A stretch of 64,000 nucleotides of DNA from Slackia sp. ZJ119 (GTDB lineage Bacteria > Actinomycetota > Coriobacteriia > Coriobacteriales > Eggerthellaceae). Below are positions 20,102-55,371 of the stretch, in pieces (position 1 is the stretch's first letter; the number at the start of each line of letters is the position of its first letter). The position numbers and the translations under genes were made by a program. The stretch is from the NCBI RefSeq assembly GCF_011039175.1, contig NZ_JAAKEN010000016.1, positions 1 through 64,000 of the forward strand, read 5' to 3'. The notes beneath the pieces are model-generated. The model searched no databases and was not told the DNA's origin. It saw only the letters and a program-made list of their open reading frames with translations.

Positions 20102-20276
20102 GGTGCAAGCAGTGGCGCCGAGGGTGGTGGCACCGACGGAGGCAGCAGCGGCGACTGAGCCAGAATCGGCGCGGGCAGAAACGCCGGGCGGCGCGACGGC
20201 GCCGAGGGTAGCAGCGGCGAGCCTGCGGAAGGCGCCAGCGAAGGCGGCAGCACCGACGGGAGCAGGCTTTGCGCGG
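20102..20276 (+). other. In-frame continuation of the low-complexity tail beyond the stop codon
   Basis: After the TAG at 20099-20101 the same frame encodes GASSGAEGGGTDGGSSGD, meets TGA at 20156-20158, and later again reads DGAEGSSGEPAEGASEGG up to about 20270. The composition matches the tail of the upstream protein, so this was probably coding or arose by repeat expansion. Confidence 0.6.
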
Positions 20277-20634
20277 TGCAAATTAACAGGCTGTGGCAAC
20301 GTTTGACAACGGATGCTCGATTTTTGTGCAGTTATGCAGGCTGTGGCAGTGTCAGGGCAAGGTCCGTTCGGGCAACGAATTGTCCCATGGCTTCTGACCA
20401 GGCATTTTGAAAAATAGGAAGTTAGTTAAAGGTAATATTTTGGCTCTAAGACAGGAATTCTCTGCCATAACCTGCATAACTGCACAAAATTCCCGATTTC
20501 GCTGTCAAACGCTGCCACAGCCTGCATAACTGCACCGCAGGCCGCTTTCGTTGTGTAGGCATTGCCACAGCCTGCATAACTGTCCGAAACGGCCGCTTTC
20601 GTTGCCGGGCGTTGCCACAGCCTGCACAACTGCA
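20277..20634. repeat. Inverted array of 24-bp repeats, family A/B copy 1
   Basis: Repeats with core GCAGTTATGCAGGCTGTGGC lie forward at 20277-20300 and 20327-20350. Reverse copies are at 20461-20484, 20511-20534, 20561-20584 and 20611-20634. All steps within an arm are exactly 50 bp, leaving 26-bp spacers that are partly conserved (CAAAA...GTCAAAC). The ~110-bp centre (20351-20460) matches, in reverse, the centre of copy 2 at 54549-54646. A transcript would form a stem of roughly 75 bp. Confidence 0.85.
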
Positions 20635-20698
20635 CCGACGGACCCCCGCCGCCGATCTCGGCTTGGCGAAAAACACGCCTCCGCCGGCGCGAGGCCGG

Positions 20699-54307: not shown

Positions 54308-54342
54308 TGGGCAGGGCCGATGTGGAAGTTCGTGGAGGGCTG

Positions 54343-54720
54343 GGCAGTTATGCGGGGTGTGGCAATTGGGGCGCCCAAGGTGTGCAAACGAGCAGGCTGT
54401 GGCAGCGCCGGGCTCAGGGTTTGCGAAGCGCTGTACAGTTACGCAGGCTGTGGCAATTGGGGGCGTCCGGAATGGACAGTTATGCAGGCTGTGGCAGCGT
54501 TTGACAACGAAGACGGGAGTTTTGTGCAGTTTGGCAGGCTGTGGCAGGGGAATTCGGTATTTCTCCAGAGCAGTTGGTATTGACTAACTTCTTGGCTTGC
54601 AAAGTACCTGGTCGGAAGCTTGGATGGTTGCTCTGGTTCGACGCATTCTGCCATAACCTGCATAACTGCACAAAAAATCGCATTACGCTGTCAAACACTG
54701 CCACAGCCTGTATAACTGCA
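54343..54720. repeat. Inverted array of 24-bp repeats, family A/B copy 2
   Basis: Forward repeats with core GCAGTTATGCAGGCTGTGGC or variants lie at 54343, 54383, 54434, 54475 and 54525 (steps 40, 51, 41 and 50). Reverse copies are at 54647-54670 and 54697-54720 (step 50). The centre 54549-54646 matches the reverse of the copy 1 centre (GAATTC, ACTAACTTC, CCTGGTC.GAAGC in the same order). Both copies lie between convergent gene ends. Confidence 0.85.
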
Positions 54721-54863
54721 CGCACGCGCTCTTTTGTCGAGCCGAAAACGAGAAGGTTGCGTCCGGGCGAAGCAGAACCAAGCCCGACGGCCTTGGTCTC
54801 GACCGAAGCAGCCGCGCCGAGCCTTGCCCGCAACGGAGCATGCGGCGAAGAGGGCGACAACAC

Positions 54864-55205
54864 TTAACAGGGCGGCTCGGCGTCGGCACGCGCGGGGTCG
54901 CGGCGGCGCAGGAATTGCTCGACGGCGGGCAGCGGCACGGCGCCGACCAGGGAGTCGACCGGAACGCCGTCCCGGAACAGGACCATCGTCGGAGTGGCCA
55001 TGACCTCGAAGGCGAAGGCGACGTCGGGGTAGCGGCTGGCGTCACACGTGGCGAACGTCACCGAGGGGTGGCGCTGTTCTGCCTGTTTTAGTACTTGGTA
55101 CAGAATACGGCACGGGCCGCAGCCCGGCGACCAGAAGTCGACGAGGGCCAGGCCCGGCTTGTCGGTGATCACGACATCGAAGTTGTCCTTGGAAAGCTCA
55201 ATCAC
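54864..55205 (-). CDS. trxA: Thioredoxin (113 aa)
   Basis: The redox site is SPGCGPCRI and the fold is typical (LALVDFWSPGCGPC, VMATPTMVLFRDGVPVDSLVGAVP with the cis-proline). The GTG at 55205 is used because AAGGAGG is six bases upstream; the long Arg/Pro-rich upstream extension is not coding. It lies downstream of folC. Confidence 0.93.
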   Translation of the reverse strand: MIELSKDNFDVVITDKPGLALVDFWSPGCGPCRILYQVLKQAEQRHPSVTFATCDASRYPDVAFAFEVMATPTMVLFRDGVPVDSLVGAVPLPAVEQFLRRRDPARADAEPPC

Positions 55206-55371
55206 AAGGCGCCTCCTTTTTGACGGGTGCAGTGCAACGGACGGGCCGGACCGGACGGGCAAGCCGGCGGGCCCGGGCAGGGGCAGAGCAGGCCGGACGG
55301 GCAGGCACCCGCGACGAAGCCAGCAGCCGACCAGCGCAGCGAGCGGGGCGGGCGGGCGCCCGGGGCGAGGC

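Follow-up and report, generated by a model that had tools for sequence, protein, structure and literature searches.

Phased inverted repeats around a conserved core in Slackia sp. ZJ119: a dispersed family of putative protein docking sites

The window, the whole stretch of DNA analysed here (64,000 nucleotides of Slackia sp. ZJ119, positions 1-64,000), carries two intergenic arrays, A and B, in which short repeats recur at a nearly constant step in inverted arms around a core. We asked what kind of element has this layout and whether RNA, movement, gene regulation or bound protein best accounts for it. We assign a probability of roughly 0.5 to the reading, made from sequence, that A and B belong to a set of 17 dispersed intergenic DNA elements, each acting as a rigid protein docking platform.

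The two arrays in the window

The first-pass annotation had described two arrays with arms of 2+4 and 5+2 repeat (R) units inverted around a conserved core, and positions, arm lengths and inversion were all confirmed, with A beginning at 20275 and B at 54341. The 20-mer taken from the repeats matched 11 times in the window at ≤3 mismatches, against 0.01 expected from 100 shuffles. The left arm of A (20275-20349, + strand) consists of two R units 50 bp apart (20275-20299 and 20325-20349). It is followed by a core of 112 bp (20350-20461, +) with the core motif GCTTCTGACCAGGCATTTTG at 20390-20409 (+), from which the right arm is reached after 71 bp. The right arm (20462-20536, - strand) contains two inverted R units (20462-20486 and 20512-20536) and is extended in 50-bp steps by an extra outer unit (20562-20586, -) and an outermost unit (20612-20636, -). 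Element B opens with four outer R units (54341-54365, 54381-54405, 54432-54456 and 54473-54497, +) at steps of 40, 51 and 41 bp, followed 50 bp after the last of these by the inner unit of the left arm (54523-54547, +). Its core of 100 bp (54548-54647, -) is oriented opposite to that of A and has its motif, GCTTCCGACCAGGTACTTTG on the - strand, at 54600-54619; the right arm (54648-54722, -) again holds two inverted R units (54648-54672 and 54698-54722).

The cores were said to be homologous between the two loci, and they are, though they align only with one reverse-complemented; read in the orientation of the core, the two elements are therefore laid out as 2+4 (A) and 2+5 (B). Both elements lie between convergent genes, A between an ORF without a Pfam match (+) and BioY (-), and B between an acyl-carrier-like ORF (+) and thioredoxin (-). 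This placement, which had been noted for the pair, is right for A and B and does not extend to several other copies in the genome (by crude gene calls) or to the related genus g8 described below.

Copies and spacing in the host genome

That the array might occur nowhere else in the genome is contradicted by the host assembly (2.84 Mb, 40 contigs), which contains 15 copies besides A and B, 17 in total. Fourteen of these have two or more R units per arm, that is, at least [R-26-R]-core-[R'-26-R']. Two others, C5:32.8k and C37:53.7k, have a single recognisable R on one side, and C38:133.2k is a half copy with one arm. The R unit (arm consensus GTGCAGTTnTGCAGGCTGTGGCAGCGTTTGACAACGnnnnnnnnnTTTTTGTGCAGTTnTGCAGGCTGTGGCAG) is 24-25 bp long, and spacers are mostly 26 bp.

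Distances between blocks were nearly constant. Neighbouring R units stood 50 bp apart in 38 of the 46 steps, the others being 40 (two), 41 (three), 51 (two) and 52 bp (one). Across the core, inner R to inner R measured 125-127 bp in 15/16 elements and 137 bp in A, whose core is 11-12 bp longer than other cores; this excess lies before the motif and corresponds to about one helical turn. Counted from the start of the core motif, GCTTCTGACCWGGCNTTTTG, the distal arm lay 71 bp away in all but one of the 16 cores, where it lay 72 bp away. Letters varied at the same time: the eight 101-nt cores differed by 54% from one another and the six 100-nt cores, several of them recent copies, by 23%. Spacers were partly conserved between copies and loci, with an identity of 0.70 between elements. 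The outer ends were ragged, with 1 to 5 R units, and the conserved parts were internal. The neighbouring genes had no common function.

A second intergenic stretch of ~300 bp, 80% alike, stands beside the copies C3_86 and C35_7 (L031:4955-5254 and L040:5051-5349).

Core motif and arms across Eggerthellaceae

At ≤2 mismatches the core motif occurred in 75 of 138 Eggerthellaceae genomes, at 136 sites (ten in the own genome) vs 2 for the reversed pattern; the remaining 63 genomes had no core motif at two mismatches. The arm profile matched in 1/138 genomes of the family, the own genome, with part of the candidates scored. A search for the arms in related genomes, proposed in the first-pass annotation, likewise found none in the close congener G002, in G001 or in G003, among the part of the candidates that was scored. 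Congener G003 has a unit of its own, CGCACAACCGGCAACTCGTG, with 11 matches vs 0 for the reversed control.

The arm survey covered 108 unique motif sites in 103 loci, made up of part of the two-mismatch sites and part of the three-mismatch matches, and arm scores were counted from 13.5 up. Strong inverted arms flanked the motif at 25/108 sites, in 14 genera besides that of the window, each scoring above its own 10 shuffles; shuffles reached ≥13.5 at two of the 108 sites. The other 83 sites were without strong arms, and some of them are coding sequence or tRNA terminators. The gap between the arms was 88-119 bp in 17 of the 25 armed sites. Arm sequence differed by genus and recurred within a genome (for example in G010, in G071 and in G134 with its relative G139), and R steps of 30 or 60-61 bp were seen in other genera (L144, L151).

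Exact matches to the core motif in named genomes numbered 25, mostly single and in unrelated taxa; by itself, an exact 19-mer core match is therefore not diagnostic. The only members of the class among the 25 were Slackia piriformis and one Coriobacteriia MAG. No named genome contained the exact arm 27-mer and no viral contig the arm 20-mer; the exact core motif was present in two viral contigs. A phage or plasmid origin was rejected, since the elements matched no phage or plasmid.

Two further occurrences of the motif were recorded. At L079, L155 and L163 it stands at one syntenic place with orthologous neighbours in three genera (G006, G121 and G128). In several genera the terminator hairpins that follow tRNA-Thr, -Pro and -Ser genes share CAGGTCAGA/TCTGACCTG with the core motif (L076, L083, L106, L124 and L125).

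Fixed length and retained loci in genus g8

A 142-bp element is present in two species of genus g8, G114 and G010, in at least about 37 copies each, with 40 candidates scored per search. Its length was exactly 142 bp in 33 of the 36 elements with both ends, with one each of 139, 141 and 152 bp. Between copies the two spacer blocks differed by 56% and 62% and the arms by 8-9%. Among 35 G010 elements, 30 had a flank match among the 36 G114 elements (29 without one 90-bp match). Both flanks were available for 28 pairs, the weak 90-bp pair and some interrupted copies included, and in 25 of these the element was better conserved than its flanks, with a median identity of 0.88 vs 0.74 and a median of 0.5 vs 22 gapped positions. 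Retention in place and conservation above that of the flanks are as expected if selection acts in place on the element, most of all on its length. Eleven of 53 classified g8 elements lay between convergent genes and some between divergent genes; next to tandem genes the motif was on their strand in 10 cases and on the opposite strand in 18, which is no fixed relation.

An IS-like repeat (ends GGGGATGCGGCA and TGCCGCACCCC) sits in the right arm after CCGCAAAAC, at the same point in four G114 copies (L219/L192, L217, L272 and L149), with AAAC possibly duplicated; it is a target-specific IS of this repeat family. At L210 (G114:C10:68000-75000) a FAD-dependent reductase and a LuxR gene, both absent at the corresponding place in G010 (C3 and C4), lie between a pair of like-oriented elements. 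All element pairs <4 kb apart in G010 and G114 had the same orientation (n = 6); two of the six are orthologous between the species, leaving four independent pairs.

Absence in a close congener

The first-pass annotation proposed to look for empty sites. In the congener G002, where most of the aligned gene stretches at the compared loci show 93-96% identity, the element was absent at 6/6 loci (A, B, C12_330, C12_340, C12_371 and C12_405), so a host can do without it. The difference was narrowest at C12_371, with 523 bp here vs 5 bp in G002; the other five loci differed more widely. Four copies in the host genome are 86-91% alike over 300-400 bp, and together with the absence from G002 these near-alike copies imply that the family was copied and that the whole set can be lost or gained. 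We read the family as maintained sites with occasional copying.

The stretch absent from G002 at C12_371 also includes a GC-rich tandem repeat of ~30-bp units beside the element (L034:4860-5070), and at 54316-55348 of the window G002 is without both element B and the adjoining thioredoxin coding region.

Competing explanations

Transcripts of the arrays had been predicted to form very long hairpins. Were such a hairpin at work, each arm should resemble its partner in the element more closely than it does the arms of other elements, which was not the case: arm identity within elements was 58.6/75 vs 59.5 expected in the host genome (permutation test, 14 elements) and 19.73/22 vs 19.61 in g8 (15 elements), by which RNA hairpin arms were rejected. 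Spacers within an element of the host genome were less alike than chance (16.1 vs 17.3 of 25, 11 deduplicated elements). A transcribed hairpin RNA, whether terminator or small RNA, is on this evidence very improbable, even though several arms are perfect inverted repeats that fold strongly and motif-like sequences occur in terminator hairpins next to tRNA genes at five loci. Two nested co-varying stems were seen in 16 cores (10/14 pairs changed on both sides, 0/500 shuffles); we make no claim for them, as they were chosen post hoc after scanning all stems and nothing of the kind stands out in 35 g8 elements, where 1 of the 40 strongest co-varying pairs fits base pairing. The arms showed no co-variation in either genus, RNAalifold predicted zero pairs for the cores, and no Rfam match was obtained for the window at the gathering score, for A at E 5 or for seven related loci at E 1. 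The lack of relation between motif strand and tandem genes in g8 also argues against RNA. We rejected the terminator reading in particular, since the tRNA-side matches look like a separate thing and the g8 elements have no consistent place at gene ends. The R units could instead be operators of a regulon, binding a transcription factor that controls the adjacent genes, which would suit phased repeated sites beside genes and the placement of some g8 elements between divergent ones. We consider this unlikely, given neighbours without a common function, no recurring gene family, and the position of A, B and the 11 g8 elements between convergent genes. A degenerate or unusual CRISPR array, which repeats of about 24 bp with 26-bp spacers bring to mind on first look, was dismissed by the first-pass annotation, and rightly: with inverted arms, spacers partly conserved between copies and loci, and 17 dispersed copies, we give it practically no credence.

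A non-autonomous mobile element of MITE- or REPIN-like kind, with arms serving as transposase sites and movement in trans by an enzyme coded elsewhere, is a possible if doubtful explanation; the fixed spacing would then reflect the needs of the moving enzyme. Inverted arms, small size, intergenic position, genome-specific sequence, the recent near-alike copies at different loci and the absence from all six loci compared in G002 are consistent with it. Against it stand the lack of any target-site duplication beyond permutations in g8 (best flank identity 0.40, permutations 0.38-0.43, 36 elements), the ragged outer ends with conserved parts inside, and the roughly 29 of 35 g8 elements that hold the same loci in two species while being better conserved than their flanks. 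Recent copies share their ragged flanks. No element-linked gene recurs: an all-against-all comparison of flanking ORFs for a helper or shared neighbour returned just orthologous loci, low-complexity frames and one conserved locus (G006/G121/G128), and no half copy with a transposase was found, three half matches having been inspected in g8. The host genome has one IS200-like Y1 gene (named by eye), and Y1_Tnp matched in 17 of 45 relatives searched. G010, despite its many elements, had no RAYT-type Y1_Tnp match, which excludes RAYT/REPIN in that genome.

Comparison with known repeat systems

The first-pass annotation knew of no described element with this architecture, and among the best-ranked matches in the open PMC literature we found none, nor any work on Eggerthellaceae repeats. 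BOX modules are not known to form phased inverted arms about a motif common to a whole bacterial family. The BOX repeats of Streptococcus pneumoniae are described as modular, dispersed, slow-moving and genome-restricted (PMC3049150), traits in which the present elements resemble them. The BrickBuilt MITE of Porphyromonas gingivalis is similar in its intergenic copies (19), variable number of repeats (~23 nt) and limited host range (PMC4596501); its units are tandem without spacers, whereas here 24-bp units alternate with 26-bp spacers and are inverted around a core.

REP and REPIN sequences are described as genome-specific repeats that form doublets in opposite orientation and serve as IS targets (PMC3733652, PMC1525189), and the elements here share all three features. 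They differ in having no GTAG/CGTC foot, far fewer copies and a geometry conserved over 140-250 bp; the R unit here starts with TGTGCAG and ends with GTGGCA, and the foot of the g8 palindrome is TGTC/TGCC. Going by the REP definition in PMC3733652, membership was rejected on the foot and, in G010, on the RAYT.

BIME-1, described as two opposite REPs around an inter-REP stretch bound by IHF and proposed to act in chromosome organisation (PMC2817692), is the closest working model. Like it, the elements are dispersed, extragenic and built of inverted short repeats with a centre that differs from the arms; they share its layout, and protein binding is putative. Unlike those of BIME-1, the arms here are phased arrays, differ in every genus and for the most part appear not to form hairpins (of ten arm units folded as DNA, z fell below -1.5 in the g8 arm and the L144 arm, with -0.24 and 0.12 for the host R unit), and the part common to the family is the centre, not the arm.

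Discussion

The best reading of A and B is as multi-protein DNA docking sites maintained by the host that would work like E. coli BIME-1. The elements combine phased inverted R arms, a family-wide motif, base-exact distances between blocks despite variable letters, and retention of loci in g8; steps of 30, 40-41, 50-52 and 60-61 bp across genomes suit sites on one helix face. Under the docking-site reading the R units would bind a sequence-specific protein with fast-evolving specificity, each genome having its own R, and the central motif would bind a conserved protein found throughout the family. Jointly these proteins may shape a stretch of about 140-250 bp, by folding or bending it, into a defined complex. 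Given the number and spread of the elements and the behaviour of BIME-1, their most likely use would be in organising the chromosome (nucleoid or supercoiling domains), with regulation of individual genes less likely. A wider version, in which chromosome organisers throughout the Eggerthellaceae pair a conserved motif protein with a fast-evolving arm partner in base-exact assembly at dozens of sites, is one we offer tentatively. In it, the protein that reads the arms and the arms themselves would turn over jointly from one species to the next, as a bacterial counterpart of fast-evolving centromere or hotspot DNA.

Even if mobile, the elements form a repeat family for which we found no description, marked by unusual rules of spacing and by an insertion sequence that targets it specifically. 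If they are docking sites, the family of gut bacteria to which Slackia belongs would contain a hitherto unrecorded kind of dispersed site whose geometry and centre are constant and whose arms are genome-specific. These sites would amount to a natural experiment on how dozens of binding sites and the protein that recognises them change jointly, and would open a way into chromosome organisation in a group of Actinomycetota that has received little study.
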